NCBI GenBank assembly: GCA_947623455.1
Contig: OX392527.1
Span: 29,132,201-29,196,200 of the forward strand
Origin: Mimachlamys varia
Lineage: Eukaryota > Mollusca > Bivalvia > Pectinida > Pectinidae
Direction: 5' to 3'
DNA length: 64,000 nt
The notes under the pieces are model-generated. The model did not search any database. It saw nothing but the letters and a program-made list of their open reading frames with translations, and had not been told where the DNA came from. Positions 66 through 63,817 of the stretch are shown piece after piece (positions within the stretch are counted from its first letter, which is position 1; every line of letters starts with the position of its first letter). Position numbers and translations under genes: made by a program.

Positions 66-3000
66 GTTCTGCGGTTTTATTCAGCATTTTACCGCTGCTA
101 GGGTCAATTCTTTTTACCGTTGGGACCATGTCGACTGTACCAGTCAGTACGCCCATGTACATACTGATGATGGTGGGGAATGGCCTATTGTCTTTTGGAG
201 ACGGGGCTTTGAGATGTATGTATCAACAATTTATTAGTGTAAGCGTATATATAATTATATATATCCTAATTCATGATTCCTTATAACGTCACTAGTGATG
301 ATGCAAGCAGTGATGATTAAAGTTTTATCGGGTTGATATTTTCTGCTATTTCACAGGTAAAAATGTAAGAAATATGTTATAACCTATATCCAATAACGTT
401 AAGCATTATTTTCTTTTCATGTCTACATTCTGAGTATGGAGTTCAACATTCAGTACGTTCCATGAAATGAGTTGTATATCAATGGGCGCCAAACTCATGT
501 GCTTAGGTTCTATTTAGTTTGTTTCGATTCTTATTATGGAACGACATCATTTCGCTACAGTAATATTTTATTGATGAACAAATATTATGAAGATCAAACA
601 CATTTCTCCTTTTTTCTTTTTCTTTTCTTGTCTACAGTTGTTCAGGCTAGAGTCGTAGCTCATAGTTTCCCAGAATCCTCATTGGTCTCCAATGCATTTG
701 GTACCTTGGGTTATTCCGGACAGGCCCTGGCCTTATACACCGCACCTTCAATGGCCACAACTGTAGGTTTGATACCTACCCTATGGTTAGGTATGATTAC
801 AATGATTATTCAAACGTAAAGATGTGCATTTTACGTGATAAGAGATGACGCAAACAGTTATGGCGGATGTTAAAAGTGTATTGTGCTTATCACGATCATG
901 ATTCGATGTTTAGACATTATCGAATTTAATGAAATGAAACATTCTGTGATGAGTATTAGCTATACGTGATGGTAACCACACGTATGATAATGTAACACAA
1001 TGTTTCTGTGCTGTAGGCGTAGCCGTCTGTGGATTTGGGGTTTTGTGTGGAGTTGGGTTACTGTTTCTTCTCCGAGTAGAAACACCACAGATAGAGGACG
1101 TTCAAAACAATAAAATGTTGGTGAGTAATATATACCGTCTGGTTGGCTTCAAAATCATTTAGGTATAATTCTAATGTATATTGAGAATCACAATTGTGCA
1201 CATGTCAAGGACATTGCCTTATTTAATGTGAACTAAAATCAATAATTTGGTAGAGAGGTCAACATGTTTATAATTATGATACCAAAACAAAATAAGATTG
1301 TTGTTTCATCTAACTTGTTGAATTGGTGATTGCTAGGTAGACAACATATGGAGCCACCTATATCGAATTATATTCCTTGTAGACACTGGCAGAGTTCCGG
1401 TCATTGCCTGGGGCCTACTGGTTGTATATACCGGCTGTGGGACTGAATAGTGCGTGCTGGATTGTGAAACAATCTAATTTCCCGTAAGAAAAACTAGCAA
1501 TATATAAGATACTTATTTGGTTAAAGTTACATGATAAATAAATTATAACCTTATTTCAAAATCCAAAATATTGTTCTTTTTCACTGTGTTCATTATGTTA
1601 TTTTGCTTGGCTTTAATCATGATACAAAACCCATCGATGGTGATATAAAAGAGATTAATTAGGTATACATCTATGTACACTATTCACTAATTGTATCCAT
1701 CGATCTAGAAGAATTTCGACGGAATACAGCATTATAATTGTGATACAACTAACGGTATCCTTGTAGGGAATATCTACAGCTACGACACGGGTACACGATG
1801 ACAGAGGCAAGTTACATAACCGGTATATCTCCACTCGTGCTCTTACTGGGTCCATTCCTGTGTTCCGTACTGGTAAGTAGCCTGTGTTCCGTAATGGCAA
1901 GTAGTCTATGTTCCGTACTAGTAAGTAGCATGTGTTCCGTACTGGTAAGTAGTCTATGTCCTGTACTGGTAAGTAGACTGTGTTCCGTACAGGTAAGTAG
2001 CCTGTGTTCCGTACTGGTAAGTAGCGTTCTTAGTAGTATTATCACCATTCACCTCATTCTGAGTTTCACATCTTTCATATATAAATACTATCATGAGTAC
2101 AAGCTATTGTCATCCTGAGTTAATCGTAACGTCAGTCATGCTTTTTATTATATGTTTATATAATGATAAATACATATTCGGATAAATATCGATGTGTTAT
2201 AAATGTACTAATGTCAATGAAATACTATATTGTATATAATTACATTTCCTTAAAAACATCAATGAATTTATTATTTCTGTTTTTATTTCAATCACCGCTA
2301 TCGCTGAAATCGGTCTCGTTAGTCAGTTCTGTACCTTACGTTATTTACCTATCCCTATTGTAGCTGAGAAAGTGTGATAAGGTGTAAACGTTCAATACAT
2401 TAATAGTTTTAAATAGATTAATGGTTTAGCCTGCCCCCTAAATGTTACATTTAGGATAGAATTAGTATAATCATAAACATATAATCATAAGACTGGGAAA
2501 TGTTCTTCATTTTATATTGGTGTTGGTGCCATGTTATAAAGGACTCAAACAACTTGTAAATCAGCCTATCACGAAGTGTTTTATACTTTTGTAGTCCCTA
2601 CTGAAAATGTGTTCCGGCTAAATACAGTGTCTCTGAGTAATTTAAATAGGTAATTGTTGATCTATTCTGCATTGAATGAAATCTATAGATATTTAACGTT
2701 ACAAAAATATATACTTTGGTAGATTTTGATATGTGATGGCGGATTGATATTGGGTCAAACGTCGGAGGGTGTTCCCGTCCAATTTCATTGGTTGGACATG
2801 TAAATTTCTGGATGTCCGAAGCAGACGCCTGTAGCGAGCTAAAATATCAGTGAAGTCCTCATTAAAAGTCCTTTGAAACCTTTGTCATATATGTATCTGT
2901 GAATCTAGGCAGTTGTCACAAGTGTTGAACTTCAAATATTAAAGTTATTAGCTCGAAAGCTTAGTACAGCTGCAATAACATATAGTAAATTATTTACTTG

Positions 3001-16400: not shown

Positions 16401-19400
16401 CTCCTTTTATTACCATTCTGGTGAACTTGACCCTATTTTCCTTTATCATTTTCTTATAATTCCCTATCTCTGGACATTCTCAGTCAGTGGTCCGTTCCTA
16501 GGCGCGTCAGTTGTCAACTTTGTTACACTACTTTATTGCATTTCTTTGTCTTGTTTGCATTTTCGATATTAAACACTAGTAACATAGTATCGATGTTTAT
16601 ACAAATATTTACACCTATATAACACAAAACTTAATCATAATGGATGTCGAACAAATATTTTTCTTTATTGAATGATTATTCTCTTTGCCACAGTTGTTCA
16701 GGCTAGAGTCGTAGCCCATAGTTTCCCAGAATCCTCATTGGTCTCCAATGCGTTTAGTTCTTTGGGCTATTCTGGACAGGCCCTGACGTTATATACCGCC
16801 CCTTCCATGGCAACGGTTGTGGGGTTGATACCTACCCTATGGATAGGTATGATTACAATAAAACTAAACCAGCTGGAAATGTTAGATAATGCATTCTGTA
16901 AAACATGGTCTGGTCTAGTCTGGTCTCATTGGTCTAGACTCATTAATCTTTTTTCATTGATCTCATCTTAAATTTTTTGTGTTTTGGTCTAAAATGTTTG
17001 CCAGAGCAGACAAAAATTTGAGTTCAGACCAGATCAATGAAACCCGACCACACCAGACCAAAGTTGAGATCAGACCAATTAAGTCAGACCAGACCAGACC
17101 AATGTTTATAGTATGTCGTTTTATTTTACTTTTAGCATACGGTATATATGTTATTTTTCGAATCATAGGAAAAGACTAAATTATTACAACGCTATCGTGT
17201 GACCATTAAAGAATGCTTATGCGTGTAATGTACTGGATATCATCACTTCAATTCACTAATTGAAACTAAACGTACAACACATGCTTTATTATTTTGTATT
17301 CAAATTGCACAGGTCTTAAGATACCTGATTCTAATGATGATAACCATATGCGTGATTATATTACCATTGCACACTCTCTATCTGTATTATAGGGACAGCC
17401 GTCTGTGGATTAGGGGTTTTGTGTGCAGTTTGGTTACTGTTTCTTCTCCGAGTAGAAACACCACAGATAGAGGACGTTCATAACAATAAAATGTTGGTGA
17501 GTAATATGCACCGTCTAATTCTACCGTTAATTGAGAATCACAGTGGTTATAGCAAACAAAACAAGTTTTGAATTAAAAAGTAATCGACTTTATATTTGAA
17601 GTTAATTGTTTTCTTGTTTTATATTTGCGCTATAAAAATACAGAAACAGTAGCCTGTTTTATATGAGCACCATTTTACAAGTAATTGATGCAGTAAGAAT
17701 GGTACGTAAATACTCTCAAAATCATAACACCAACGTTAAGATTGTTTTAAAGGCGTCTATATACCAAAATAACAAAGAAAATGTAACTGATATATTTCTT
17801 TCCCAAATGACATAGTTTCCATATATCAAATAAGCACAACCTGACTAGTATGCACTGTAAGGTCCTATTTCAAATAATTTGGTAGGTTGGTGATGTATAC
17901 AATGAAGGAAACTCGATAAAATATAAAGCACATTTAAGCATTAAACACGCGTTATTAATTTTGTCTGGAATCCTGTTCCGTGTTTTAGGACACAGAAAGC
18001 TGTGTAATGCTAACATGTATATTTATTTTTTCCATTGGTTTTGATAGCAAATTATTAATTATTTTAGATAGATTTCTAATACATGCAATAGCCAACAGCC
18101 AGTATTGACCAGATATCTCCAACGTGATGATTTTGACGTGACAATGGTAATGCCGTCACTATAACCACTCCCGTGGTATGGTTTCATAACACGGAACTGG
18201 CCTTTGTAGCGGTCTAAAGTTGCAATACAAACCAAATGTAAAGATATAAATATAAGGTATTGGTTTGCTGGAGCCTCCATAGCCACCGTTAATCTTATTT
18301 GTGTAGTGGCACGGTACATGATATACCCATTTTCATACAACACGATTTTAAATTATACATAACTAGTTTAATTTTACTTCTAAATTAATAAATTCAAGGG
18401 GTTTTACGCAGCTGATCCTTCTACTTCTATATAAGTTTAGACAGTTTGGGTTCCCAGGTGTTGGCCCCTAGCATCACTGAAGAATCCTAGGAGGACGTAG
18501 CAGCTGTATAATGCAGTTTGATTCATATTTTCGGCATAATGTATCTATTACTAAATTTGAAAGATGCAGCATATATGTGTGTAACGTCATCTTTGGTTTC
18601 CTTGTAGACATTGAAAGAGTTCCTGTCATTGCCGGGGACCTACTGGTTGTATATACTGGCTGTGGGACTCACAAACGCATGTTGGCTTGTGAAACAATCA
18701 AATGTGCCGTAAGACAAACTAACAATGTAAAGAAAATACCTTAACTATAACGTTTTCTACTTTGTCATAACAATGGTAATATGATAATTGAAATCATTAC
18801 CTTCTCATTTCTCAATGCAAAATGTTTCTTGTTATCTTTTATTGTTGTATTTAATGCATCATTTTTCCTTACATAACGTACACGGTGACATAAATAGATG
18901 TCCATCATACATTCTGAGTACACAATATACAAATGTAAACCATCGTTTTAAAAGTAGTTGGTTGTCTAATTGTGATACGACTGATGGTATCCTTGTAGGG
19001 AATATCTACAGCTACGACACGGGTACACGATGACAGAGGCAAGTTACATAACCGGTATATCTCCACTCGTGCTCTTACTGGGTCCATTCCTGTGTTCCGT
19101 ACTGGTAAGTAGCCTGTGTTCCGTACTGGTAAGTAGCCTGTGTTCCGTACTGTTAAGTAGTATATGTTCCGTACTGGTAATTAGTATGTGTTCCGTACTG
19201 GTAAGTAGCCTGTGTTCCGTACTGGTAAGTAGCCTGTGTTCCGTACTGGTAAGTAGCCTGTGTTCCGTACTGGTAATTAGTATGTGTTCCGTACTGGTAA
19301 GTAGCCTGTGTTCCGTACTGGTAAGTAGTCTATGTTTTGTACTGGTAGGTAGTTTGTGTTCCGTACTGGTAAGTAGCCTGTGTTCCGTACTGGTAAGTAG

Positions 19401-22400
19401 CCTGTGTTCCGTACTGGTAAGTAGTTTATGTTTTGTACTGGTAGGTAGTTTGTGTTCCGTACTGGTAAGTAGACTGTGTTCCGTACTAGTAAGTAGCCTG
19501 TGTTCCGTACTGGTAAGTAGCCTGTGTTCCGTACTGGTAAGTAGTCTATGTTCCGTACTGGTAAGTAGTTTGTGTTCCGTACTGGAAAGTAGCCTGCGTT
19601 CCGTACTGATAAGTAGTCTATGTTCTGTACTGGTAAGTAGCCTATGTTCCGTACTGGTAAGTAGCATATGTTCCGTACTGGTAAGTAGTCTATGTTCTGT
19701 ACTGGTAAGTAGTCTATGTTCTGTACTGGTAAGTAGTCTATGTTCTGTACTGGTAGGTAGCCTATGTTCCGTACTGGTAAGTAGCCTATGTTATGTACTG
19801 GTAAGTAGCCTATGTTCCGTACTGGTAAGTAGCCTGTGTTCCGTACTGGTAAGTAGCCTGTGTTCCGCACTGGTAAGTAGCCTATGTTCCGTACTGGTAA
19901 GTAGTCTATGTTCCGTACTGGTAAGTAGCATGTGTTCCGTACTGGTAAGTAGCCTGTGTTCCGTACTGGTAAGTAGCCTATGTTCTGTACTTGTAAGTAG
20001 CCTATGTTCTGTACTGGTAAATAGCCTATGTTCCGTACTGGTAAGTAGCCTATGTTCCGTACTGGTAAGTAGTCTATGTTCCGTACTGGTAAGTAGTCTA
20101 TGTCCCGTACTGGTAAGTAGCCTGTGTTCCGTACTGGTAAGTAGCCTGTGTTCCGTACTGGTAAGTAGCCTGTGTTCTGTACTGGTAAGTAGTCTATGTC
20201 CCGTACTGGTAAGTAGCCTGTGTTCTGTACTGTAAGTACCCTGTGTTCCGTACTGGTAAGTAGCCTATGATCCGTACTGGTAAGTAGCCTGTGTTCCGTA
20301 CTGATAAGTAGCCTGTGTTCCGTACTGGTAAGTAGCCTGTGTTCCGTACTGGTAAGTAGCCTATGATCCGTACTGGTAAGTAGCCTGTGTTCCGTACTGA
20401 TAAGTAGCCTGTGTTCCGTACTGTTAAGTAGTCTATGTTCCGTACTGGTAAGTAGCCTGTGTTCCGTACTGGTAAGTAGCCTATGTTTCGTACTGGTAAG
20501 TAGCCTATGTTCTGTACTGGTAAGTAGCCTGTGTTCCGTACTGGTAAGTAGCCTGTGTTCCGTACTGGTAAGTAGCCTGTGTTCCGTACTGGTAAGTAGT
20601 CTATGTTCCGTACTGGTAAGTAGCCTGTGTTCCGTACTGGTAAGTAGCGTTCTTGTTCGTGTTATTATCATTCACCTCATTCTGAGTTTTAAATCTTTTA
20701 TTTCTAGAGCCTACATCGGATGATAATGGTGATGATGATATACAGCATTATAAATAGCACCCTACCTAGCTTACATGTGCCATTCTAAAGCTCTTAACAC
20801 AATCGATACAATCAAAGCAATGAACATATAAATTGTGCAATACGATTGCAAGGAATTCGCAGATGCTGTCTTATCTGGCGCTCATAAGTCCTATGCCACC
20901 TGGCTAGTATATCCATATGTGTGTATGCCTGCATGTGTGTGTGTTAAAAGTGAATTGTGTTCTTGCAATTGGACTGTCATTCCAACAGCATTTTTTATAA
21001 TGTCATTTCACTTGAATGCTTAAACCCAAATACTGCAACCACACAGACAGGTTGATAAAATACAATATACATGTAACTTACGATAACAGTTATGGTTATT
21101 GCGGAAACCCCACAGCCATCAACCTCCCCATCCCCTCTTAAACCATTTTCCAAACGCTAATGAATGAAACTCATATATTTTACAGCTGTAGTTATCGTTG
21201 TTCGGGTATTAATAATGATTTGTTTTATGTAATAGTTACAGTCTACAGTGCCATGCACTCGATAACCATTGTTCCACCAACTACCGTTATCACCTTATAC
21301 AATACAACTCTAATAAAACAAGTACCATGTTTCTATGACGTCAACAACAATAAGTGTGACCGGGGCTATGTAAATTATCCAGTAGACAGTGTGACATCAT
21401 CAACTACAGACACTGGCAGAGTTAACATCGGTTTATGTTTAGTCCAAAATGTTGTATTTGATTAACCGTTCTCACGTTTATTCGTTTTAAAATTAAATGT
21501 GTGTATGCAATTTGTGTCCCAATATAGGACTACATGTATAATAAACAAAATAGTAACGAACATAAGGATAATTTAAAAGTTTAAAGATTACCTGTCTATT
21601 ATGTTAAGGTTATTTGGGGAAAGCTTCTAAGGAACACATGTAATTTATACATAAATAGCTTCGCCGATAACCAAACAGGGGTTAATACGTGATTATTGAG
21701 GACGGAATTCAAAACTATTAACTTTAGGCTCTCACGTTCTATTTACGAATGAATACATAATTTATAACTTTTGAAAATGGGATACTTTTTTCATAAAATA
21801 ACTGTTTCTATTGGGGGAGTATGACTGGCCTTAAATTGACAACATCATTTTTGATATTCTGTTTTATTCTATAGTTAAATGCATTGTTTTGGATGTTATT
21901 GATTGTAGATAAAAGAATTGTAAAATATTTTCCAGTTTGTAGGAACAAACTACATTCTATGCCTAAGCATTAATACGTACTTTAAGTATTGTAGATGCCG
22001 TATGTATTAAGGCCAAACACGGGAAACTTAAATGGGTGCGATGGAACAAAGCGTATATGACATCCCTCTGTTTACGAAACCGAATAGGCCTCAATATCCT
22101 CTTTACTATTATTATCATAAAACAAAATGCTGTCATGTAACGATGTGTTACTCATGTCCATATACAAAAACATACTTTATATACAGTCTTAAAGTTCTAC
22201 CATTTTCGCCGACAATGTAGATAGGAAATATTTTTTTTGTCGATTGTATTACATTGCAGTAGAGAAGACAACGTATGGATAGATAATCCAAGTTTTACTA
22301 TAATTGTAAAACTCCTGAATGTAAATAGATGTAAGATATTTCTAACATAAGTTATATACTGATCTGCAAGTGGTACCTGTATGCTGATATAGTGTTTAAT

Positions 22401-33935: not shown

Positions 33936-33949
33936 CTTTTTTGTGGTAA

Positions 33950-42445: not shown

Positions 42446-43239
42446 TAGTCTACCGTGAGTTGATTTGTATCGTTTGCAATGCCTTGTTCAATACTGTACT
42501 TTTATTTGATTGTAGAAGAAGATTGATTGTAATGGAATCCTGACTACATCATTTCATTTAATGATAGTAGTAAACTGTGCCTTATGGGGATTCTGTCCAT
42601 CCGTCAGTATCTGGGTCTTATCCATAGCCGACGGGATTGGATTAAGCATAAATACAGTAAGTACACGTGTGAATAAGGAAGTGATATTATCGTTCGCCAT
42701 TATTGCAAAATTTCTTTAATTTCTTCAATTAAAAGCACGTCTTTTAGGTGTATGTGTCAGAAATTATGTAAGCACTTTAGAATTTGTCGTTATTTGAATT
42801 ATTAAAACTGTCATAAATCTGGGCATTGGATCTTTGTACTAGTTTTTACATTTTGCTTGGTTACTTTTTAAGATGCAATGTACTGGAGGAATAGTAGTTC
42901 TAAGTATGTTACGCATATTGAGTAATAGGTTTCGAAAGATCGTTAAGGCTAATAGGCAGCACAACCGTACATGGAGATTGCAAAGCTCATACGTCTTGTC
43001 TAAGAGTAAGTTATTTTGGTCCCAGCCCTGTCTAGTATTTCATCCGGATTTCAAAAGTATCACCTTCACAATCGTGGTTTGGCTAGAATATATGTTGGAG
43101 ACGTGTGAGTATCGTTCATTTTTTCCTGGTGTTGGTGATATTGTCTTCCACTGGGGTGATCTGTGGAGCAGTGATGAATGTGCTGGATACTCACAAGGTA
43201 AACGGAACATAGCAGACAGTGCTGGTAAGATGTCTATGT

Positions 43240-44010
43240 TAAAGACCCAATATACGTAACTTTCGGCAAAACCTGAAGCGAAAATCAGGCCTAATACCTT
43301 TTTATATTTATAGATTTAGTTAAGATTAACTAGTATCTGCAATATTCGAGATGAACTCTTAAGAAGTTACCGGTACAGCAGCAGTTAAAACTCAGTATTT
43401 GTAAACACGCATCAATTTTGAACTGTCTGAAACAGCTGTTTGATAAGGTTGTATGGAGCAGCTAATTCCATTTTTTCGGCCTACTGTATCTATTACTAAA
43501 TTTAAAAGGTGCAGCACACGTGTATGTTACGTTACTTTAGTGATAGAGGGTGGCGGACTCTGCTGGTGTTTTTTTTAGTCCCCAAGGTTTGCTGAAGCCT
43601 CCATAGCCACAGTTTATCTCATTTGCGTAGTGACATGGTACATGATATACACATTTTCGTAGTACAATATTTGAAATTATACAGAACTAGTTTAATTTTA
43701 CTTTTAAATTCATAAATTAAAGGCGTTTTACGCACCTGACCCTTCTGCTTCTACAGTAGTTTAGAAATATTAGATTCCCACCTTTTGGCCCCTAGCATCA
43801 CTGAAGAGTCCTAGGAGGACGAAACAGCTGTATGGTGCAGTTTAATTCATTTTTGTTATATATTACTAAATCTAAAAGGTGCAGCACATGTGTGTGTCAT
43901 CTTCTAACTTCGGCTTGTTGAAATGGGCCACACCTGGATTATTTTCAATTCTTTGGATTTTTCTGTCAAGAGTTTCTTGTTAATTACGACTCTGGTTTAC
44001 TTCGTATTAG
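43240..44010 (+). repeat. R3 element split by R2 insertion (copy C intron 12)
   Basis: R3 begins at about 43250 (ACGTAACTTTCGGCAAAACC) and stops near 43408. R2 sequence fills about 43425-43900, in two consecutive partial copies. R3 resumes at about 43918 (GAAATGGGCCACACCTGGAT). At 24600-24950 the same R3 is continuous, so R2 went into R3. Confidence 0.65.
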
Positions 44011-44049
44011 GCGTAAAGGATAAAATATCTGCATTTCTTTTATTTATCA

Positions 44050-44200
44050 AATAATTGTCTTATTCAAAAGCGTCAACAAACCATAATCTGAACTCGAAAT
44101 CGGTAAATCTAGAGGCAAAATAGGAACAAAGGAAAGATTGGCATGGAGATCCTCGTAAAAGTACAAGAGGATATGACCAGGTTGTCCGGATGGGTCAATA
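44050..44200 (-). repeat. R1 copy before copy C exon 13
   Basis: Minus R1 fragment: AGCGTCAACAAACCATAATC, GGAACAAAGGAAAGATTGGC, GACCAGGTTGTCCGGA. Confidence 0.6.
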
Positions 44201-44509
44201 GGGTAAAATGTCACTGAAATTTTCTGTTTCAGGCCTGCGCTTTAAACTCCAGAATAGCAAGACGGAGGCAATCTAATATGGAAACCATAGGACTAATATC
44301 GATGACTGAACCGTCCAGTCAGTACTCTGATATTGATGACGTAAACGACAACACAGTGAACGATGACAAACTGGCTAGTCAGTAATGTGGTTCAGATTTG
44401 AGTAAGCGACATTTGGATAAGCATGAACAATGAAAGTAAAGCAAATCATATGGTGCGTAATTAGCTAGCATTATTGTTTTGAAGTTTTATCAAGTTATTA
44501 TTGTTTGCC

Positions 44510-50500: not shown

Positions 50501-53500
50501 GTCACTGTGTGATGTCTATATATCTAGTACACCAAACATCTGTCACAGTACGATGTCTATATGTCTAGTACTCAAAACATCTGTCACTGTATATGTCTAT
50601 ATGTCTAGTACACCAAAAATCTGTCACTGAGTGATGTCTATATGTCTAGTACATCAAACATCTGTCACTGTGTGATGTCTATATGTCTTGTACTCACACA
50701 TCTGTCACTGTGTGATGTCTATATGTCTAGTACACCAAACATCTGTCACTGTGTGATGTCGATATGTCTAGTACACAAAACATCTGTCACTATGTAACGA
50801 ATATCTGTCTAGTACAAATACACCACTCACTGACTCTGATTACGTTACAAAACACAACAAACTGAGTGACTACATCTAGTCCAAAAAGCAACTAATACTG
50901 AGTAAGACAACATGTTTGGCTCACATCTCACTATCTACTGATTGCATTATGTGAGGTACACAATACACAATCCAACACATTACTAACTGTGCTGCACATA
51001 TATCTAGTGCACAATACCTCTCTAACTGCGTGGAGACTCCAAGGTTACTTACATAACACACCACTCATAAGGTGTGACAACAACACACTACTCACTGAGT
51101 ACGGACTCATGTTTACCTACACAACACACCACTCACTGAGTATGGACTCATTTTTACCTACACAACACACCACTCACTGAGTACAAACTCATGTTTACCT
51201 ACACAACACACCACTCATTAGGTGTGACAACAGCACACCACTCACTGAGTACGGACTCATGTTTACCTACACAACACACCACTCACTGAGTACGGACTCA
51301 TGTTTACCTACACAACACACCACTCATTGGGTGTGACAACAGCACACCACTCACTGAGTACGGACTCATGTTTACCTACACAACACACCACTCACTGAGT
51401 ACGGACTCATGTTTACCTACACAACACACCACTCATTAGGTGTGACAACAGCACACTACTCACTGAGTACGGACTCATGTTTACCTACACAACACACCAC
51501 TTATTGGGTGCGACAACACCAAACTACTCACTGAGTATGGACTCATATTTACCTACACAACACACCACTTATTGGGTGCGACAACACCAAACTACTCACT
51601 GAGTATGGACTCATATTTACCTACACAACACACCACTTATTGGGTGCGACAACACCAAACTACTCACTGAGTATGGACTCATATTTACCTACACAACACA
51701 CCACTTATTGGGTGCGACAACACCAAACTACTCACTGAGTACGGACTCATGTTTACCTACACAACACACCACTTATTGGGTGCGACAACACCAAACTACT
51801 CACTGAGTACGGACTCATGTTTACCTACACAACACACCACTTATTGGGTGCGACAACAGCACACTACTCACTGATGAGTGTGGACTCATATTTACCTACA
51901 CAACACAACACTAATTGGGTGATGTTTGCACAAATCCTCCATGATAGAAACAAAAACAAAAAGCATGAATGAATATATAGATGCTAACAAAATAAATAGT
52001 GTCAATGACGTATTGGCTACATTTATAATGGTCAACTTAATCCGTTGTCGGTGTGCTTATCTGTTTACAGCATTTTCATACCGGAACAAACATCACAAGT
52101 AACCAGACCGACTGTGAAGTATGCCTTGGTCTCGGGGAAGTCCGTTATAATCTGATTTTCGCTGCATATAAATGGACGTAAGTATAGTGCTTTTGTTGAA
52201 TGAAAAATGAAAAAAAATCTATTGCCCAAAAGGTAAAAATCTTTTAAGAAGCCATTGATAATTGTTGCCCTGCCCTAAAAATTATGCTTCTGTTGCATAA
52301 TGTATCTATTATGCCTCCTGAAATAAGTATATCTAAATTATGCATTCATTCACAAAACTTTTAAGATCATTTCAATTCAGCACCCCATCAAATCCACCAA
52401 AGCAGGATTCAATCAAATGTAAGAAAACTAATAATTTTGTTATCGGTTACAGCTCACTCGTTGTGTGTTTGCCCTCAGGGTTGGTGATAGACAGACTTGG
52501 AAATAGTCGTAAGTATTACAGAGAAATTCCATATCTGATGTCGTATAATTTATAAATCATTTTGTTTATTTTAATAATTTCATATCAGAGGCCGCGGGGA
52601 TCGATTGGTCAAGGTTTCTGACCACTTGTCGTCTACCCTTTGATCAATGTTTTCTTCTTCAGTCAAGGCACTATTGTTCTAACAAACGGTGTCACCCAAA
52701 ATATATCTGAAATTATACGAAGGAGCAAATTTATTACATTCAAAAACATGGACACATGAAATCGGTTATAAGAAAACTTAACATAAAACATTTTTCTTAT
52801 GTGTTGCACACAGTTCGAAAATTTCAACGAAGGAACCTGGTTCTTTGAGCTTTGTCTACACTCTTATGACCTGACAACATAGTTGATACATGTGCAATAC
52901 AAGACCGTCATTCTCAAAGCTTTCCTTTGGATGTTCTAGGTTCTGTGAATATGTTCAGTGTATTGCCTTTGATTGGGTCAGTGATGTTCTTTAAACTTTG
53001 TTTTGTTTGTTCAGGGTCCGTGAATCTGTTCAGTGTGTTGCCTTTGATTGGGTCGGTGATGTTCTTTAACTTGTTTGTTCAGGGTCCGTGATTCTGTTCA
53101 ATGTGTTGCCTTTGATTGGGTCAGTGATGTTCTTTATGCTTTGTTTTGTTTGTTCAGGGTCCGTGAATCTGTTCAGTGTATTGCCTTTGATTGGGTCGGT
53201 GATGTTCTTTAAGCTTTGTTTTGTTTGTTCAGGTTCCGTGATTCTGTTCAGTGTGTTGCCTTTGATTGGGTCGGTGATGTTCTTTAACTTGTTTGTTCAG
53301 GGTCCGTGATTCTGTTCAATGTGTTGCCTTTGATTGGGTCAGTGATGTTCTTTAAACTTTGTTTTGTTTGTTCAGGGTCCGTGATTCTGTTCAGTGTGTT
53401 ACCTTTGATTGGGTCGGTGATGTTCTTTAAGCTTTGTTTTGTTTGTTCAGGGTCCGTGAATCTGTTCAGTGTGTTGCCTTTGATTGGGTCGGTGATGTTC

Positions 53501-56500
53501 TTTAAGCTTTGTTATGTTTGTTCAGGGTCCGTGATTCTGTTCAGTGTGTTACCTTTGATTGGGTCGGAGATGTTCTTTATGCTTTGTTTTGTTTGTTCAG
53601 GGTCCGTGAATCTGTTCAGTGTATTGCCTTTGATTGGGTCAGTAATGTTCTTTAAGTTTTGTCTTGTTTGTTCAGGGTCCGTGATTCTGTTCAGTGTATT
53701 GCCTTTAATTGGGTCGGTGATGTTCGCCGTTGGAGTTACGTCCCACGCTCCTGTGACGACATCAGCGTATATCATGATGGCGGCCGGGTACAGTCTTCTG
53801 GCGTTTGGGGACGGAGCTCTTCGCGGTATGTATTAACGATTGATGACTAACAATTATTTAATAAGCATGTAATTAGTCCTTTATGATGTGTTCATATCTG
53901 TGTTTCTTTTAATTTCAGTCAAATATTTTTTCCTTGCACAAATAAAATGAAGTATGTATATTGTAATCAAATTATCTGTTCTTTGTTAGCAATGATCTGC
54001 TTCAGTTGGCATCCATAGTCGATATAAATGCTCATTAGGAATGTAAAACGTGATGAGGCGACTGTGTCAAATAACTCACGACGAAAGATGAACGAGAGAT
54101 ACATACCGATGATGACATCTAAGCTATGTTACTATAAGCAAAGCTTCACAACATTGCGTCACACAGCTGTTCCGTCATTTGTGCACTCATCAATGAAGAT
54201 AGTGGGTCAAAAAAAATCACCTAAATATGTATAGGTTATTGTTGAAACAACAAACACACTGTTTAAACTCTCATACTCGATAACCAGGATTACGCTCACC
54301 TTCGCTCTCTACTCCCCTGGAATAGTTTTCATCATTATGTAACTGAGAGATTCTTTCAATGTACATCGAAGTGTCGAAACTAGTCTCCGTGCTTCATCAA
54401 AAAGTTTGTGCAAAAAGAACCTTCAATTTTACTGACAGTCCAGGGATGCAGAGAGCGCAAGTGGGCGTGACATGTGATATCGAGGATGCTAAACCCTCAG
54501 TTGTATGGTATTCAAAAATAAGGGAATTCCCAAAGTATAAGTTATGAAACCAACCGACTATTACTAAGAGACAGTTAATAAGGTTTAAATCGATAGTCAG
54601 AAATCAATCGGCAAATGCTACCATCTCATATCTATAAGGGTTAATATCCAATGGCAACCAGGCCCACACCATCACTGTGTCTGCTTTTGCCGATCTTTAT
54701 AATCAGTTCAATGAACATGTGATCGAATTGAGACATTGTTTCCTTCACCTTTAGATCCTGCAATTGGTACATGTATGTCATTACAAACCTTACCTTTTAA
54801 ATTTATACCATTACATTTTAGTTTTTACAGTATTAATTTGATGTGTTATATACGTCTATGATGTTATACGATGTATCTCATTCTCTTTTGCTTATTCTTT
54901 TTATCTGCAGTTGTACAGACAAGGGTGATATCCTATTGTTTTCCGGAAGCCACGCTTATCTCCCTGGCGATCTGTACATTTGGACACTGTGGAGAGGGCG
55001 TAAGCTTGTACCTGACGCCATACATTGCCACTACTGTAGGGTTCGTACACTCAATATGGCTAGGTACGATTACAATTTTCTACCACAATATCCGGTGTTG
55101 TTCCACTCTTAGACAAATGTATAAACGTGTCCGATTTAAACGACCTCAATGCAGTAACGGCCCTAGTAAAAACGGCCCTAATTGAAACGGCCCTACTTTT
55201 ATATAGGATACATATAACATTATTTTTTGTTAATAAAGGTACATGTACCATTAATAACTAAATATGTGTACAGATAAACAGATATAGATCCATGACTGTT
55301 GGATAGATATATTAAGGTTTTTGACCGGAAATCACGTGGTTCAATGCCTCGTGCAGATTGTTGACGGAATTTATTTCACTCGATTATTTTGGAAAGTTAC
55401 AAAGGCATTCACTAAGGATTGTGTCTTTTGTAATGACGGTGAAATAAATTTGATATCAAACAACCACTCGTTGTGAGACCTCGAATCGATATAACGTTAA
55501 CTACAAGCATAAGGTAAAAGTCAGCATTCGACCTGTCAACCGCTGTCTAGTATAACGACAGATCTGTCATTTTACATTAAGAGTGTTCGCGTTTTGAATC
55601 TTCGATTAACAACATTTTCGCATTCATGTAAACATGTCTACTTCTTCAAAGAGAACACTTCGGGGTTCGATCAAGAAATAAAGACAATTTTGCTTTAACG
55701 GAAAGCCTTTAAACATTGTTGAATCATATGAGCAGAATACCGAAAACAACAGGATTTACAAAATCTTTTCAACACATAGATAGTAGAGAGACTGAAAGTG
55801 TGATCAGCTATATATAACAAGCAGAATTAAACAGGTCCATCATATATATTACTAACGGCTTTCTCTGGTACAATACGGAAGTCTGTGTTAATATAAACCA
55901 CCATAGTTTTATGACCGTGTTACCAATTTTTTGTGGTTTAAATTTCTTTATTACAGCAACTGTTGCCTGTGGATTGGGAGTGATATTAGCGGTTGTTTTA
56001 GCGTTTCTTCTTCACCTGAAAACATCTCAGGTAGCAGCAGACAATCAAAACAAAAGGATGATGGTAAGTAACATTTGTAGTCGAGGTACGTGTTACCCTT
56101 CATAAGGTACTCTCAGATATCACACATTATAGTTTTTCCTTGACTTACCAAGCTGTATGATGCAGTTTAATTCATTTTTTCGGCATACTGTGTATATTAC
56201 TAATGTTAAGAGGTGTAGCATATGTGTGTGTTACGTGATCACCAGATACTCTGCAAATACCTTTATGTTGATTTTTACTATTGAGATCGGTATATATTTT
56301 TTCGACTAACACTATTTACCCAATAAAGCAGTACTTTCTTGTAGACACTGAGAGACTTGTGGATGCTACCGGGAACATACTGGATGTTCATTACATCTGT
56401 AGCGTTCTTCAATGTGTGTTGGATTGTTAAACAGAACAACTTACCGTAAGAATAAACATAAAAATAAATATGATACCTTAAATGAAACATATCCGGGCAT

Positions 56501-59500
56501 TTGTATAACCAATTAGTTATAATTATATATTTTACATTTTTGCCATTGTGTATAATATGATTTACTTTCTAAACGTTAAATTATAAGTCCCTTGTGTAAA
56601 TACAGTTGCAGTTAAATATTTTTGTAACAGAGTTTCAAATCAGATGCTTTATCATTAACGATTACAGAGACTATTTGCTGTTACGACATGGGTATACGAT
56701 GATACAGGCGAGTCAGATAACTGGTATCGCCCCATTCGGTACCTTCCTGAGTCCTTTCATATGCTTGGCACTGGTAAGTATCATACGACAACTGATGGAT
56801 TTCTTAATTTAACAGGGCATTTCAAGACGAGTTTAACATGTATTGTAAAACACGTTTACCTGTCCGATGTATGCATATGATTAGGGGATTGAGGAGAAGT
56901 GACTTTTGGATCTTGTTTCAGCTGTCATTTTGTTAAGTATGTCTCCCGTCCGAATGAACAGTGACATATTGTATTAGTACCGGTTGTTCGGGTTCTTTGA
57001 ATATGATCTTGTCTGGGTTGTAACCCGCGAACCAAATTTTATGAACCTGAACGTTTATCCTACACCACCCATACACGATGTACATTGCATTGTCACAATG
57101 TCAAAAAGACCCTCGCTCGAAAGGCAAAGGTCAAATATGTGCGTTTTTCATGAACATCTTGTCCGGGCTGTAACTTTTAACCCGTTAAAGCTATCTTGAT
57201 GAAATTAAGAGTGTATCCTACATCACCCATGAACCATTTGAACTGTCAAAAGTCATTGTGAACTGTTGTCGATGAAGCAGAAGACGCGTACCCTTCCGGA
57301 ACACCTTGGCTTATTCTCTTATACTTTTACGAAGGTCTCCATTGTACATCTTTCCTTTGTTCCTATTTTGCCTCCAGTTTAATAGATTTTGAGTTCGGAT
57401 TATGGTTTTGTTGACGCTTAGGTATTCTCTGGTGTTTTTACCCGAAGGCCACAGTTCAAGTGTGTGCATTTTTTACCGTGTCATATTGTTAGGGGTCTAA
57501 CTTTGAAACAGTTAAAGATATAGTGGTTAAACGTGAAATATATACATTTGTATACCTGCATCCGTAATAGAGAATGACAATGAGTCAAAGATGCAAAAAG
57601 TGTAAAAGTTTTACGAATATCTTTCCTATGCATTCTTATTCCATAACAACTAAGAGAACACATTTTAATGTTACAAATGTAGTTAAGTGGCAGTTCATTC
57701 ACGGTATCTCCTCCCTATTTCAAAACTAGATTGCATTCATTGTTCAGCCGTAAATATACATACAATACTGGTTATACATTTTGTAACAGAGCTTCTAACA
57801 AGCGTGTTGTATGATAAACGTGACAAATTCCATTTTCCTCTCGTGAATTTTCCCTTTCTGGATAGAATATCCCTGTTTCTCCATCATATGGTGTAAACAT
57901 GTCGCAGTCGACTCGTTATTCTAAGACTTGCTCTAAATATCGCGATGTCAGATGGTGACGAACAAAAACAATCAGAAGATACCAAAGCGTCAACAAAACC
58001 ATAATTCGAACTCAAAATCGATTAAACTAGAGGCACAATATTAACCAAGGACATTTTTACATGGAGACCCTTGTAAAAGTATAAAGCCAGGTATTCCGGA
58101 AGAGTAAGCGTCTTCTGCTTCATCGACGACATCCGTCATGTAAATCTTGGTCACATCCAAGTAAACATCAATCCTCAAAATGAGAACTGAGTCAGTATTG
58201 CCAATCCCAACAAGTAAGCAAACAAAAGCAAAATCGAAACGTCCATCTTGATATCACACAAGATACATAATATTTCTCGATGAAATAAAGATGGCGGCCA
58301 TAAATCTTGTCCATAGTCTCCATCAACCTGCATCTCTCAAATCCTGTGCCGTAAGTTTGTTCGTCAGCAGCTGACATCCATCACGGAAATCTCGATATTC
58401 AGAGCTATTCCTAGAATAACGAATCAACTGCGACACTTAAACACCATAGGAAGGAGAATCAGGGATGTTACTTTCAAGAAAGGGAAGTTCACGATCGGAA
58501 ATTCGAAATCGTCACGTTTATCATATTGCTTAGTAGTACTCTGCCCGTGTTGGTCATGTTGAAGTATTCTTCTAACAATTCTTTTCCGGGTCTTAACTTC
58601 TAACCGTTGAAGATATCTTGATGAAACTTGCAGTATACATGCATCACCTAAAGCAGATGTGCAGTGCACTGTCATTTTGTCACTGTGTCCTTGACCTGAA
58701 GGTCAGAGGTCAAATAAGTATGATTTTTAGGTCACCTGAGACGAAGTCTCAAGTGACCTATTCTAATCGCCTTTTGTCCGTCGTCGTCCGTCGTGCGTCG
58801 TGCGGTGTGCGTCGTGCGTCGTGCGTCTGTAAACTTTTTACATTTTCGACTTCTTCTCCAAAACCACTGAACCAATTTCAATGAAATTTTACAGGAAGCT
58901 TCCATGGCTGAGGGTGAACCAAAATTGTGAATTATATGGTCCTCACCCCCCAGGGGCATGCGGGGCAAGGCCAAAAAGGGTAAAATTGACTAAAACTTCA
59001 AAAATCTTCTCCTCTACTCTCAGATATGGTAGAATCAAATACTCTTCATAGATAGAAGGGTCTTAAGGTGCTTTACCAAAATTGTGAATTTCATGACCCT
59101 TGGGTCTCATGTTTGCCCCTGGGGAGGGGGTAAACTTTACTATAGTTTATATTGGGAAATCACATTTTTGACTATTATTTGTTGGATTTGTATTGGAATT
59201 CATTCTAACTTGTATAAAATTATCAGCATGGGATGACACTTTGATGGTATGTGCATGTTGGCCCTAGTTGACCCCCAGGGGCTGGTGGGCGGGGCCAAAA
59301 AGGGTCAAATTGACAAAAATTTCAAAAATCTTCTCCTCTACTCTCAGATATGGTAGAATCAAATACTCTTCATAGATGGAAGGGTCTTAAGGTTCTTTAC
59401 CACAATTGTGAATTTCATGACCCTGGGGTCTCACGTTTGCCCCTGGGGAGGGGGTAAACTTTACTATAGTGTATATTGGGAAATCACATTTTTGACTATT

Positions 59501-62500
59501 ATTTGTTGGATTTGTATTGGAATTCATTCTAACTTGTATAAAATTATCAGCATGGGATGACACTTTGATGGTATGTACATGTTGGCCCTAGTTGACCCCC
59601 AGGGGCTGGAGGGCGGGGCCAAAAAGGGTCAAATTTACAAAAATTTCAAAAATCTTCTTCTCTACTCCCAGATATGCTGGAATCAAATACTCTTCATAGA
59701 TGGATTGGTTTTAAGGTTCTTTACCAAAATTGTGAATTTCATGACTCTGGGGTCTTGCATCTCCCCCTGTGGAGGGGATTAAGTTTACTATAGTATATTG
59801 GCAGAAAAAAAAACATTTTTTTGCATTATTTGTTTAATTGCCATAAGAAATGATGCAAATTTGGTTGAAATTATCAATATGACATGACTTTTGAGTAGTA
59901 CGCACATATTGACACTGACAGACCCCCATGTGACTGAGGGGTGGGGCCTAAAAGGGTCAAATTGACATAATTTCAAAAATTCATTTTTTCCACTCCCAGA
60001 TATGCTACAATGTATTGTTATAAATATTCATCTCAACATTCCCATATTTCTCTTTCATGTCAAACATCAGGTGACCGTTAAGGCCTATGGGCCTCTTGTT
60101 TCAATAATTCTTTTCCCGCGGGCGATAACTTTTAAACCGTTAAAGATATATTGATAAAAAGTTTAGTATACCTGCATCACGAATAGACGATGTGATGTGT
60201 ATTGTCAATAGGCCAGTGTGACCCACAGGGGCTAGGCACGGACCTATGTCACTATGAAATGATTGTCAGATATTTGTTTTACCTTTCTCGAATATAGCCC
60301 CTCCCACTACTATATATCTGTGACAAGGGAAAGAACTAGCCTCAACGAGAAAATCGACCTATTTTCACTCTAAGCTTGTTTTCGTCACTGAATGAAGTCC
60401 AATTTTTTACATGCATGCCTCATTTTAAAGGTGAAACTTTTATCTTCCAGCCGATACCAAATATATCCCGCTACACGCATGTAAAAGCTCACTAGGCTGT
60501 CTAGAATCCGAGGTTTTGCATGAAAAATAGTAGGTGGGCACTTCCGTGTCCAGTGCTTCATACCTTGTCTAACCATGGGTATAGCTTTATTAACGTGGTG
60601 ATTACTGAAAACGGCTTTGCAGTTCCATTACTAATGCTAAAGCACGTTATCCTACCTTGAAGTCGAATGTTTATCGCTATTGTAATCCAGGTCATCCGAG
60701 GTTAACTTTACGGTTCACTGAAGATGTGAACTTCATCTGCCATTTTGCAAGTTTACATATTTTCGGAATCCATCTAGATTTTCGCACTACTCATGTAGAC
60801 CGACAAACTCCGAACAGTTGCTCTGGACACGGAAGTGCCCACCTACTGTTTTTCATGCAAAACCTCGGATTCTAGACAGCCTAGTGAGCTTTTACATGCG
60901 TGTAGCGGGATATATTTGGTATCGGCTGGAAGATAAAAGTTTCACCTTTAAAATGAGGCATGCATGTAAAAAATTGGACTTCATTCAGTGACGAAAACAA
61001 GCTTAGAGTGAAAATAGGTCGATTTTCTCGTTGAGGCTAGTTCTTTCCCTTGTCACAGATATATAGTAGTGGGAGGGGCTATATTCGAGAAAGGTAAAAC
61101 AAATATCTGACAATCATTTCATAGTGACATAGGTCCGTGCCTAGCCCCTGTGGTGTGACCTTTACCGAAAGTTCAGAGATAACAAAAAATGTATGACTTT
61201 TTCAAACATCCAAAGGAGTACGCCAAGGTGATGCACTCTCACCCTCCTTGTCTTATTATAGACATGTAACAATAATTGATCAAACCTCATGGTAATAGAG
61301 GCCCGTCTACGATTCGGATGTTCTATAGTAATAAGCTTGTCCGTCCGTTTGTCCGTCTGTCTGTCCTTCTGTTCGTCCGTCTGTCCATTTTTGACTGATT
61401 GATATTTTGGTATGAAGGAAAGTTGGTCAGAAGAAAAAAAGATGTCCACTCACCAAGCATCAAGGTCACAGGGTTAAATATCAAAGTCATAGGTTAAGAT
61501 CAAAGTTTACATTTATTAAGTGCTTAACATTTCGTTATGACATTATGAAGGAAAGTTGGTACAAATAAAAAAAAAGATTATAAGGGGAGACCTATGTTTT
61601 TGTTCATTAAAACAAGTCTGTACTTATGTCTCGGTTCTCAATTGAGGCCATGATATTTACTTGGATTTGACCTAGACTTACATGGTGGGTGTCGTCAAAG
61701 AAGCAGAAGGAGCTTACTCGTCCGGAACACCTCGTCTTGGTCTCTTGTACTTTTACAAGAGTTTCCATGTAGCTCTTTCCATATTTCATATTTTGCCTCT
61801 AGTTTATTCGGATTATCGTTTTTTTGACACTTTGGTATTCTCTCATTTTTTTCCTATCCCGCTGTATTTTTCTCATTTTGGCTTCTGTCATATTTTTATC
61901 ATGCTGTTGATCCATAAAACAAAATATAAGCAAGAAAATAAATCTCAGTCGAAAACTAGGACGTGTGTACAAGCGTGTTTAAAATGCCATTACATCAAGT
62001 ACTTACTTTTGATGACAGGAGAGGATCGACTGCGACGGAATTATGACTACATCGTTTCAATCGTGGATGCTGATATTCTATGCCTTACTCGGATTCTGTC
62101 CTGATTTCAACATTATCGTCATCGCCTTGGCAGACGGGATAGGTATTGCCATGCTTACAGTAAGTTTGTGTTGGTAATATTATAGATGTACGATTATAGA
62201 CGTTATTGTTAGGGTGTGCCCTGCAGGTAGGGCGTAAGAATTTTACCTGCTGCCCCAACTGCATGATCGTAGAAGGTGACTAAACTTGGGATCTTATCTT
62301 TTCCATTATTTCTAAACAACTTTCGCATTCCTAATGTCTCCCTTGGTACAACCTCACTTTTGGCCTTTATTTGAGCGTTTGCCCCTGTGAGGAAGGCTAT
62401 GGGGTCTGCCCCCATGCCGAGTTTACCTCTAACAATGGAAGTTATTACTTCCTGCTTGATGTTCAGAATGATGGGAGTGGTACGCCCACTTTTATTATAA

Positions 62501-63817
62501 TGCGCCGGGGGGTGTTCTGCTGGGGGGCTTCGGCAGTATACTGCGGTGTGGTAGCACTCTAAATCGAAAAAAGATCCGGACTGTCGCAAGAAGGCTTACA
62601 CGAACATACCGCATCCTAAAAAAGAACACATCACTCTCCCAACAAACACACCCACATCACATACACCGTGAGGCCGTCCTTAAATGACCCCGGCTGTTAA
62701 TAGGACGTAAACCAATCAACCAACCAAATTATTGATAGTGAATAGTGAATATTTACCAGCAAATAAAACTCCAAAAACTCTCTTATTATATGCTTCCATG
62801 ATAAAATTTCGAAAGGAAAAAATGTATGACTGATGTTTTTGTACAAAACTTCGCCAAAACTTTAGACAGGGCTGAATTCATTAGTTCAGCATCTTAGCTT
62901 TAGAAGACAAGCAATGTGCATGCTCGATTGCTTTTTCAGGGATGACAGCATCTTTGATCTACTATTAGTTTTCCGAATTTTCAGATAAAGCGGGAGCGAA
63001 GCGTTCGCGAGCTATTATTTTCGTTCGTCGTTTGAGATGTCGCGTTCTATTCTTAAAGTGCACCTGTAACTACTGGTTTTCATTGACTGTATTTATAAAT
63101 CGAAATTCAGTGGATAACTAGTCATTATTTTGCAATCATGGATTTTTTAGCTGGTGAATTTGTAATTATAATTTGTACAAAAAATGACTGGGGTGAGGTT
63201 CAGTACACTGATGCAATGCTAGATACATTTTCCAGTTCGAAAAGCATATAGATATTTTGCTCCCATTAGGTATACGACTTAACCACAATAATGCCATAGC
63301 CATGCGTGTTTGAGCATTACCAACATTGTGTTCACAATTCGATGGACCATACACAGTATAAATAAACTACAAAATTATGAAGAATTTTACTATAATTCAT
63401 TTTTCTTACTCCAAGTGTTTCTAGAGCTTTTTGATAAATTGTCTTTATTTCATTTCTTTCTTTACTTTTTAAGAAATAAGACTTTTGTCAGTTCATCGAC
63501 CACTTGGTGTTTGCAGGTAATGTTGTGGCAGGCCCCCATGGACCTCTGCCCCGCCCAATACATAGGATCTCTGGTACTCTAATATTGGTGTCTGTAGGTA
63601 CTGTTGTGGCAGGTGCTTGTTTACCTCTGCCACGCCCCATATATAGAACTCATGTACTCTAATATTGGAGTTTGTAGGTACTGTTGTGGCAGGTGCTGGT
63701 GAACCTCTGTCCCACCCCATATATAGGAACTCTGGGAGGGTTGATGTTCTCGGTGAGAAATGTAGTAACAGCGCTGACTTTCGTTGCATCTGGATATATA
63801 CTGGAGAGACCGAACAC
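47563..63817 (+). CDS. MFSD1-like MFS transporter, copy D (3' end off window)
   Basis: Exons: 47563-47572 (ATGATGACAG), 48739-48845, 52071-52177, 52453-52508, 53676-53825, 54911-55063, 55957-56063, 56345-56445, 56668-56773, 62019-62159, 63678-63817; exons 12-13 lie beyond the window. Phases agree and 392 residues are open. Exon 2: RYGVLFCNSFVIFGVYYFME. Exon 3 loop has sequons NIT and NQT. Exon 4: GLVIDRLGNSR (MFS motif-A type). Exon 5: FGDGALR. Exon 9: DYLLLRHGYTMIQASQITGI. Exon 11: LGGLMFSVRNVVTALTFVAS. It is the most diverged copy. Exons 5 and 11 are each preceded by tandem copies of their own intron-exon junction; the last acceptor is chosen in each because only it leads to a full-length exon in frame. 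Role inferred from MFSD1: proton-independent dipeptide export from lysosomes. Confidence 0.75.
47573..48738 (+). other. Copy D intron 1
   Basis: About 47690-48060 loosely matches the TGACGTCA-bearing dispersed repeat (ATTGTATTGTTGCC, GACGTCATAG) and 48215-48265 is an R2 scrap (GTGCAGCACATGTGTGTGTT). The 94-codon frame at 47585-47869 has no domain I recognise. Confidence 0.4.
49150..50815 (+). repeat. 40-bp minisatellite in copy D intron 2 (about 40 units)
   Basis: Units of ATGTCTAGTACTCAAACATC and TGTCACTGTGTGATGTCTAT. Interrupted at about 49585-49680 by an R1 fragment (TTCCTGAACACCTGGACTTA). Homologous to the intron 2 array of copy C. Confidence 0.9.
51040..51905 (+). repeat. Composite satellite in copy D intron 2
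   Basis: Alternates CACTGAGTACGGACTCATGT plus TTACCTACACAACACACCAC with CATTAGGTGTGACAACAGCA. The composite unit is about 67 bp. The right part (51500-51870) is homogenised to the TTATTGGGTGCGACAACACC variant. Confidence 0.9.
52915..53675 (+). repeat. Splice-acceptor minisatellite before copy D exon 5 (10 extra units)
   Basis: Ten tandem units (eight of 75 bp, two of 68 bp) run from 52940 to 53675 and lead into the true exon 5. Each has a 25-bp intron-like tail TTTGTTTTGTTTGTTCAG followed by about 50 bases of exon 5 (CCGTGATTCTGTTCAGTGTG ... TTGGGTCGGTGATGTTC). The first unit keeps the older acceptor TTCTAG^GTTCTGTG as in copies A and B. There are thus eleven AG acceptors. The 68-bp units shift the frame, so splicing into the first acceptors and reading through hits stops. 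Only splicing to 53676 gives the family exon. Confidence 0.9.
55064..55956 (+). other. Copy D intron 6
   Basis: Contains a small AACGGCCCTA triplicate at about 55157-55196. Otherwise AT-rich without recognisable features. Confidence 0.4.
57000..58728 (+). repeat. About 165-bp satellite units with R1 insertions (copy D intron 9)
   Basis: Diverged units with CTTGTCCGGGCTGTAACTTT, GTTAAAGATATCTTGATGAA and GACCTGAAGGTCAGAGGTCA begin near 57007, 57158, 57480 and 58570, and again at 60103. R1 copies interrupt them at 57255-57440 (+) and 57975-58530 (-). A 135-bp R1-end segment is present in inverse at about 57805-57945 and 58395-58530. Confidence 0.6.
58729..60103 (+). mobile_element. Long dispersed element with GGTCACCTG ends and 315-bp internal repeats
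   Basis: Begins AGGTCACCTGAGACGAAGTC and ends CATCAGGTGACCGTTAAGGC then CTATGGGCCTCTTGTTT; AGGTCACCTG and CAGGTGACC are inverse. Inside are GTCGTCCGTCGTGCGTCGTG microsatellite sequence and about three tandem units of about 315 bp (CTTCTCCTCTACTCTCAGAT ... TTGCCCCTGGGGAGGGGGTA). No transposase is seen. It sits within one 165-bp satellite unit. Elements with this start are, to my knowledge, common in bivalve genomes (recollection, not checked). Confidence 0.6.
60224..61152. mobile_element. hAT-like foldback element with 330-bp inverted arms
   Basis: A 929-bp element with two near-perfect inverted arms, 60224-60553 and 60823-61152, and a 269-bp unique centre. The ends are CACAGGGGCTAGGCACGGAC and its inverse. 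It is flanked by an exact 8-bp direct repeat GTGTGACC at 60216-60223 and 61153-61160. An 8-bp target duplication with CA-GGGG type ends points to the hAT superfamily. It has no transposase ORF, so it is non-autonomous. Arm identity suggests recent activity or gene conversion. Confidence 0.88.
61335..61388 (+). repeat. GTCC/GTCT tetranucleotide microsatellite
   Basis: Imperfect run of GTCCGTCCGTTTGTCCGTCT type in copy D intron 9. Confidence 0.8.
61640..61870 (+). repeat. R1 copy in copy D intron 9
   Basis: ACTTGGATTTGACCTAGACT, TACATGGTGGGTGTCGTCAA, TCCGGAACACCTCGTC and GACACTTTGGTATTCTCTC phrases place it in R1. It ends about 150 bp before exon 10. Confidence 0.65.
62209..62705 (+). mobile_element. 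Dispersed SINE-like repeat in copy D intron 10
   Basis: Starts at about GGTGTGCCCTGCAGGTAGGG, continues ACCTGCTGCCCC, ACTGCATGATCGTAGAAGG and ends CCCCGGCTGTTAATAGGACG then AAACCAATCAACCAACCAAA. The CAACCAACC tail after GTTAATAGGACGT is a 3' end I associate with bivalve SINEs. The minus-strand 126-codon frame across it is incidental. Confidence 0.5.
63517..63677 (+). repeat. Splice-acceptor duplication before copy D exon 11 (2 extra units)
   Basis: Two units (81 and 80 bp) each consist of the exon 11 start GTACTGTTGTGGCAGGTGCT ... CCCATATATAG followed by a new intron end CTAATATTGGAGTTTGTAG. With the real exon at 63678 there are three acceptors (after 63516, 63597 and 63677). Units 1 and 2 run into TAA (CTCTAATATTGG), so only the last gives a full exon. 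Confidence 0.88.

Follow-up and report, generated by a model that had tools for sequence, protein, structure and literature searches.

Minisatellites on splice junctions of MFSD1-like genes in the scallop Mimachlamys varia, and a genome-wide excess of tandem splice donors

Introduction

How does a splice junction come to be the repeating unit of a minisatellite, and is this a trait of one gene family or of a genome? The question is raised by a stretch of 64,000 nucleotides from the scallop Mimachlamys varia (assembly GCA_947623455.1, contig OX392527.1, positions 29,132,201 to 29,196,200 of the forward strand), called the window below, in which tandem MFSD1-like paralogues, here named A to D, carry arrays whose unit contains a splice site. 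An earlier note, made from the sequence alone, had suggested that junction duplication recurs in this family, being either neutral while the spliceosome can still pick one site or used to vary the protein. The recurrence was confirmed and proved wider than supposed: unrelated genes carry such arrays, and across the assembly intact donors stand in tandem in strong excess.

Results

Junction arrays in the MFSD1-like genes

Arrays were located with Tandem Repeats Finder (TRF), by inspection of the sequence and with exon models from tblastn, whose exon ends are estimates. The carriers matched eight pectinid proteins at 42–58% identity, four of the eight being named MFSD1 or MFSD1-like by their source, and a carrier protein matched the MFS_1 domain (E 2.2e-13); a PDB sequence search returned no solved relative. 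The exons and arrays concerned are as follows, with a slash at the splice site.

1767 to 1872, plus strand: gene A exon 9 (EYLQLRHGYTMTEASYITGISPLVLLLGPFLCSVL), with donor CTG/GTAAGTAG; the 106 nucleotides equal those of B exon 9
1857 to 2025, plus strand: gene A exon 9 donor array, seven 24-bp units of CCTGTGTTCCGTACTG/GTAAGTAG, open in the exon frame (TRF)
18999 to 19104, plus strand: gene B exon 9 (exon model and comparison with A)
19089 to 20648, plus strand: gene B exon 9 donor array, 65 units of 24 bp (TRF)
34929 to 35033, plus strand: gene C exon 9, the homologous junction without an array, for comparison; the next array downstream begins at 35485
52917 to 53725, plus strand: gene D exon 5 acceptor array, 11 units of 75 bp, some of 68 bp (TRF)
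53676 to 53825, plus strand: gene D exon 5, set by the last acceptor (exon model and reading frames)
56669 to 56773, plus strand: gene D exon 9, the homologous junction without an array, for comparison (TRF and exon models)
63504 to 63732, plus strand: gene D exon 11 acceptor array, 2.8 units of 80 bp (TRF)
63678 to 63817, plus strand: gene D exon 11, set by the last acceptor (exon model and reading frames)

In all four arrays the unit contains both an exon edge and an intron edge, and the arrays reported earlier at the exon 9 donor and at the exon 5 and exon 11 acceptors were found again by TRF and exon models. Exon 9 ends in ..PFLCSVL/GTAAGTAG, and GT is retained in 64 of the 72 exon-9 units of A and B together. 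The acceptors of gene D, the only gene in which acceptor-type arrays were seen, read TTCAG/GGTCCG at exon 5 and TTTGTAG/GTACTG at exon 11, and number 11 and three, respectively; the exon 5 unit joins about 22 nucleotides of intron end to 53 nucleotides of exon start. The exon-proximal splice site is intact in four of four arrays, as judged from the DNA, and the spliceosome could indeed still pick one site, as had been proposed. Reading the D exon 5 units as a run of small tandem exons was rejected, because no donor of their own was seen by eye.

The arrays of A and B are not separate cases. Exon 9 is identical between the two genes at 106 of 106 nucleotides, whereas eight other exons are only 0.78–0.93 identical. 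The tract of identity covers at least 127 nucleotides, from the interior of intron 8, where it ends abruptly on its upstream side, to the first unit, and a short stretch similar between A and B also follows the array. The array thus probably lies within a recent gene-conversion tract. Since identity is complete over exon 9 and the adjoining flank while the other exons have diverged, the two arrays were counted as one event and not as two independent cases. The paralogues nevertheless differ in copy number, seven units in A versus 65 in B. Neighbouring units of the B array are slightly more alike than shuffled ones (2.09 versus 2.28 ± 0.11), and no clear period of a higher-order repeat was found in it.

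Tandem donors across the assembly

The whole assembly was scanned for patterns of three motif copies separated by gaps of 8–38 bases (10–40 for the acceptor). The donor CAGGTAAGT gave 6,424 tandem triplets (2,682 + 3,742), the same motif reversed 199 (74 + 125) and a donor with one killing base, CAGCTAAGT, 132 (20 + 112; its reverse 12), so that intact donor triplets exceed the two control motifs 32-fold and 49-fold. A second donor form, CAGGTGAGT, was likewise in excess, with 1,315 triplets (711 + 604) against 177 for its control. Lone motifs, array copies included, number 30,635 for CAGGTAAGT and 5,463 for its reverse; base frequency therefore accounts for part of the excess only.

The contrast was also seen when loci were counted. 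In the first 2.62 Mb of chromosome 1 (C1), clusters made up four of 27 CAGGTAAGT loci, against one dense and one loose cluster among about 84 reversed-motif loci (Fisher 0.012 or 0.030). Two of the 27 that were counted as single (1367706 and 2003581) lie in arrays of imperfect units; as this check covered the donor motif alone, the figure of four in 27 was left as first counted. The 100 CAGGTAAGT triplets listed fall into nine arrays, which scales to about 580 arrays genome-wide, while at least nine arrays in the first 6–10 Mb of chromosome 1 scale to about 1,200; the array number is an estimate, the positions listed being incomplete for both strands. With CAGCTAAGT, the dead donor, 100 of the 132 matches were listed and fall into 10 arrays.

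Such arrays are also present at genes unrelated to MFSD1, so they are not a family trait, contrary to the earlier reading of them as a matter of one family. The refuting condition set in the earlier note, that such arrays be equally common at random genes, had a split outcome: other genes do carry them, but at a frequency far above that of control motifs, so that placement is not random. One case is a gene of SLC5 type located some 9.5 to 24 kb past the window, which has two donor-spanning arrays.

73530 to 77069 in window coordinates, past the window: SLC5-like donor array of 42-bp units, followed some 340 bases on by about 68 similar 43-bp units

The 43-bp array (74162 to 77069) is, by the likeness of its units, probably a continuation of the 42-bp array. 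Two SLC5-like genes (L015:4369-5233 and L032) were observed to have donor arrays at apparently one exon end, with units of 33 and 30 bp; since the units are unlike at a matching exon end, this suggests that the arrays were founded independently at that junction.

Upstream flanks were read for 12 CAGGTAAGT arrays on chromosome 1, nine from the triplet scan and three from the locus count; array 1367782 was kept out of this set since it had been found through its coding flank, and the set excludes arrays 1054072, 4879689, 4948144 and 5231442 of the CAGGTGAGT scan. A coding exon was called where an open frame with an acceptor-like start ended at the donor.

C1:3406116: donor array at an exon with a DSL domain (Pfam E 1.6e-6, the sole one of the seven coding cases past the Pfam cut-off)
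C1:6209985: donor array resembling the SLC5 exon end of the neighbouring gene, with a different 30-bp unit (likeness by eye, no Pfam match)
C1:240111: dynein-like donor array (AAA_6 match below the threshold, E 0.0012; at a distance of 10 kb, an AAA_7 match)
C1:3046605: donor array at an exon-like open frame
C1:4378067, 8007521 and 9975107: donor arrays, at each of which an exon-like open frame ends
C1:667968, 2385978, 4171903 and 5593878: arrays without an evident coding exon at their start
C1:1021752: array whose start was not reached

Seven of the 12 arrays thus start at the donor of a coding exon and four do not evidently do so. These four would be expected if the source of the excess were the sequence of CAGGTAAGT as such, or a single family of dispersed repeats. 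In two of the four, at 4171903 and 667968, the unit looks like an acceptor placed directly back to back with a donor (TTTGTTACAG/GTAAGT). These two units presumably resemble recursive splice sites. A sequence effect or a single repeat family is nevertheless an unlikely source of the excess, as both the sequence and the length of the unit vary among the arrays listed and the second donor form is in excess too. A comparison with lone CAGGTAAGT loci points the same way, weakly: 16 of 23 such loci in the first 2.62 Mb were read; a coding exon is clear at four of them and doubtful at two, and a further locus (L048) is actually an array, so that a coding donor begins seven of 11 resolved arrays against four of 15 lone loci (P 0.07, or 0.21 if the two doubtful exons are included). 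One lone coding locus, L046, itself starts a 38-bp array of CAGGTGAGT units.

Reading frames and unit variants

Another reading is that the units are functional, being spliced alternatively so as to vary the protein, and that selection keeps them. Several observations speak for this. The 24-nucleotide period preserves the frame, the exon-9 unit translates as (VSSLCSVL)n without a stop, the whole A array is open, and reading from the exon through the B array meets no stop for 411 codons, up to a 1-nucleotide deletion in unit 48. The last six of the 11 exon 5 acceptors in D are in frame and open, and the array at C1:3046605 is open as far as it was seen. Periods at coding donors are multiples of three in eight of 12 cases versus 17 of 43 elsewhere (P 0.053), a small, hand-counted and post hoc comparison. 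The repeat donors of human IFI6 are reported to be used (PMC4526556). However, since only one in 72 single changes of the exon-9 unit creates a stop, the frame would be expected to stay open in any case and is no evidence of use, and stops are reached from the first five exon 5 acceptors of D, from two of the three at exon 11, where the last alone is open, from the dynein-like array and from one SLC5 array.

The 72 exon-9 units comprise 32 distinct types, with 16 distinct variants across 16 exonic sites and eight across eight intronic sites, that is, one per site in exon and intron alike. When 23 of these 24 variants were classed, the other being in a unit with a deletion, six were silent, 16 changed an amino acid and one made a stop, compared with 20, 51 and 1 among all possible single changes. 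The distinct changes therefore match the prediction for no selection. If every copy is counted, silent changes make up 70 of 104, a bias for which a neutral intron would have no need. None of the three most frequent variants, present in 30, 21 and 13 copies, alters an amino acid (P 0.06 when set against transitions, 0.02 against all changes), and non-consensus copies per site average 5.75 in the exonic and 1.88 in the intronic part. Because copies are related by amplification, their counts are no independent test and give only a weak hint of selection on the units. Together with the multiple-of-three periods, the silent common variants hint that leaky inner donors may matter.

None of the seven aligned pectinid homologues has extra residues at the border of exons 9 and 10 (the eighth, P0008, is without this stretch), and hence the first donor should yield the normal protein of the family. 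No B unit has a donor score above that of the first, and 50 of the 58 scored units equal it; of six units in A, one scores higher. The exon-proximal donor is probably the unit used. With distinct variants that fall as neutrality predicts, stops behind D acceptors and no insert in the homologues, we regard the earlier idea that the arrays vary the protein as quite unlikely.

Minisatellite density and chance

Minisatellites are dense in this genome, and some would be expected to land on junctions by chance overlap alone. Twelve 10-kb stretches elsewhere (120 kb in total), taken at round coordinates and thus a non-random sample, contained 30 arrays with 2.7 or more copies (28% of bases, 0.25 per kb), and the window is much the same with 17 arrays (25.5% of bases, 0.266 per kb). 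The expectation was calculated from the arrays of the locus itself, a 144-kb region consisting of the window and 40 kb on each side, with 78 exons, including about 10 of the neighbouring gene; the choice of test was made with the arrays already known. For founders of at least 2.7 copies that span a junction, 1.43 were expected and six arrays (five events) were seen (P 0.0035 and 0.015, respectively). When 2-copy duplications were included, 2.06 were expected and seven arrays (six events) were seen (P 0.005 and 0.019). Taken alone, the three events of the window are not decisive (P 0.17). With the count for the whole locus and the 32-fold and 49-fold excess of intact-donor triplets against it, chance overlap is very unlikely to be the explanation.

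Assemblies can misjudge the length of long arrays, but those considered here are 0.2–1.6 kb, below the usual length of HiFi reads. We give an assembly artefact hardly any credence, given the 32 unit types and an assembly described as 44-fold PacBio HiFi with a consensus quality value (QV) of 64.4 (PMC11252643).

Other features of the window

Exons 5–7 and 11 of gene C (30587 to 44355) went undetected by tblastn, and since they were not found C may be a broken copy. Intron 9 of C contains a 46-bp array of 135 units at 35485 to 41681, about 450 bases past the exon 9 donor, whose unit ends in CTACAG. A 46-bp array of 3.9 units (25408 to 25588) lies after the last coding exon of B, and its unit holds a strong donor-like ACAG/GTAGGTA (p 0.005 by shuffles), at a site with no known junction. 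In intron 9 of D, an inverted repeat at 60214 to 61162 has arms some 350 bases long, which translated matches show to be mostly identical.

Discussion

We consider it probable that the arrays are junction-seeded minisatellites of the type called mirages in amphioxus, tolerated since the exon-proximal unit still splices. A short tandem duplication would capture an exon edge together with its splice site and so found an array, which would then grow and shrink by slippage or unequal exchange; gene conversion could transfer it from one paralogue to another. The exon-proximal unit, the first of a donor array or the last of an acceptor array, would keep a complete splice site while the remainder acts as intron. 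An array would be tolerated because, with this unit intact, a normal mRNA is still possible.

Tolerance alone cannot explain the excess of tandem donors, because arrays lying within introns ought to meet with no less tolerance. Either array founding is therefore more frequent at donors, or at exon edges generally, or selection favours spare donors. Our preference, held tentatively, is that founding duplications happen at donors at a raised rate; alternatively, spare donors could be selected for, or arrays could be in excess next to exons in general. The acceptor data are too weak to tell donors apart from exon edges at large. A bolder proposal, possible but speculative, is that the splice donor is a preferred seed of tandem duplication in this genome, that hundreds to about a thousand or more donor arrays arise from a donor-tied process, for example transcription-coupled breakage or RNA–DNA hybrids at the 5' splice site, and that selection removes those arrays in which leaky inner donors would disrupt the frame.

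Several points pull against junction seeding at donors. In the B array, in contrast to the amphioxus globin case, divergence is not found at the edges, as the first, second and last units all equal the consensus. No donor enrichment at p<0.05 was found in the units of 28 arrays sampled outside the locus (0 of 28), so that junction arrays are a minority of minisatellites. The acceptor-like motif TTTTACAG was in only 2.6-fold excess (5,185 triplets, 2,561 + 2,624, versus 2,003), in a weak scan where one long array fills most of the matches listed and the motif is a poor proxy for acceptors. Triplet match counts give weight to long arrays, the four clusters among 27 loci come from one end of one chromosome, and most of the seven coding exons on chromosome 1 were judged by open frame alone. 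As four of 12 arrays there have no evident coding exon and the start of one was not reached, part of the excess may lie off real junctions. The silent bias among exon-9 copies and among their three commonest variants belongs here as well.

In the literature searched, junction arrays have hitherto been a curiosity, with a handful of loci in amphioxus and a single gene in man. A genome in which tandem triplets of an intact donor outnumber those of two control motifs some 30–50 times would be a natural laboratory for three questions: by what rule the spliceosome picks one of tens of equivalent donors, whether splice sites are mutational hotspots, and whether the arrays feed intron gain. Reads and the alternate haplotype assembly (GCA_947622925.1) of the same animal are listed as public, as are RNA reads of the species (ERR10908612) (PMC11252643), and both the choice of donor and the hotspot question could be approached by mapping.

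Comparison with known systems

The earlier note had supposed that no such system was described, but two of the same kind are. In amphioxus, mirages are minisatellite-like tandem duplications of exon–intron boundaries in Adh3 and the globins BflGb6 and BflGb9, where splicing is reported to be undisturbed and a gain-of-intron model was proposed (PMC3087553). They share with the scallop arrays units that span the junction, donors as well as acceptors, several genes, splice signals in many units and arrays of differing length. Because this anatomy is shared, the arrays of the window are filed as mirage-type minisatellites on the evidence of their sequence. The host is a bivalve and not a cephalochordate, and the array in B has 65 units against three to six in BflGb6. 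A homogenised interior that leaves out the edge units, which the B array does not resemble, is a trait reported from one globin cluster of amphioxus and not a defining one. In the scallop, one array has in addition been homogenised between paralogues and a genome-wide excess of donor arrays was measured, with splicing judged from sequence.

The second precedent is the minisatellite of the human interferon-induced gene 6-16, which Turri et al. reportedly described in 1995 as having multiple splice donors. This minisatellite, in 6-16/IFI6 (G1P3), supplies several donors (PMC4526556). As in the scallop, donor units stand in tandem and downstream units are available, but IFI6 is a single gene, and its inner donors are reported as used.

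Two further phenomena are more distant. Intron gain by tandem genomic duplication also copies splice signals but makes a new intron (PMC4974935), whereas in the scallop one junction is multiplied and a new intron is not evident. The scallop arrays also offer competing neighbouring sites at one junction, as tandem splice sites do (PMC2423196), but up to tens of them, 24–80 nucleotides apart.

Tandem splice sites are usually two sites a few nucleotides apart. No pertinent report of junction arrays in bivalves or scallops was found in the literature searched, whose coverage excludes most subscription papers. What is new beyond the precedents found is how far the phenomenon extends, with intact donors in tandem strongly in excess across the genome.
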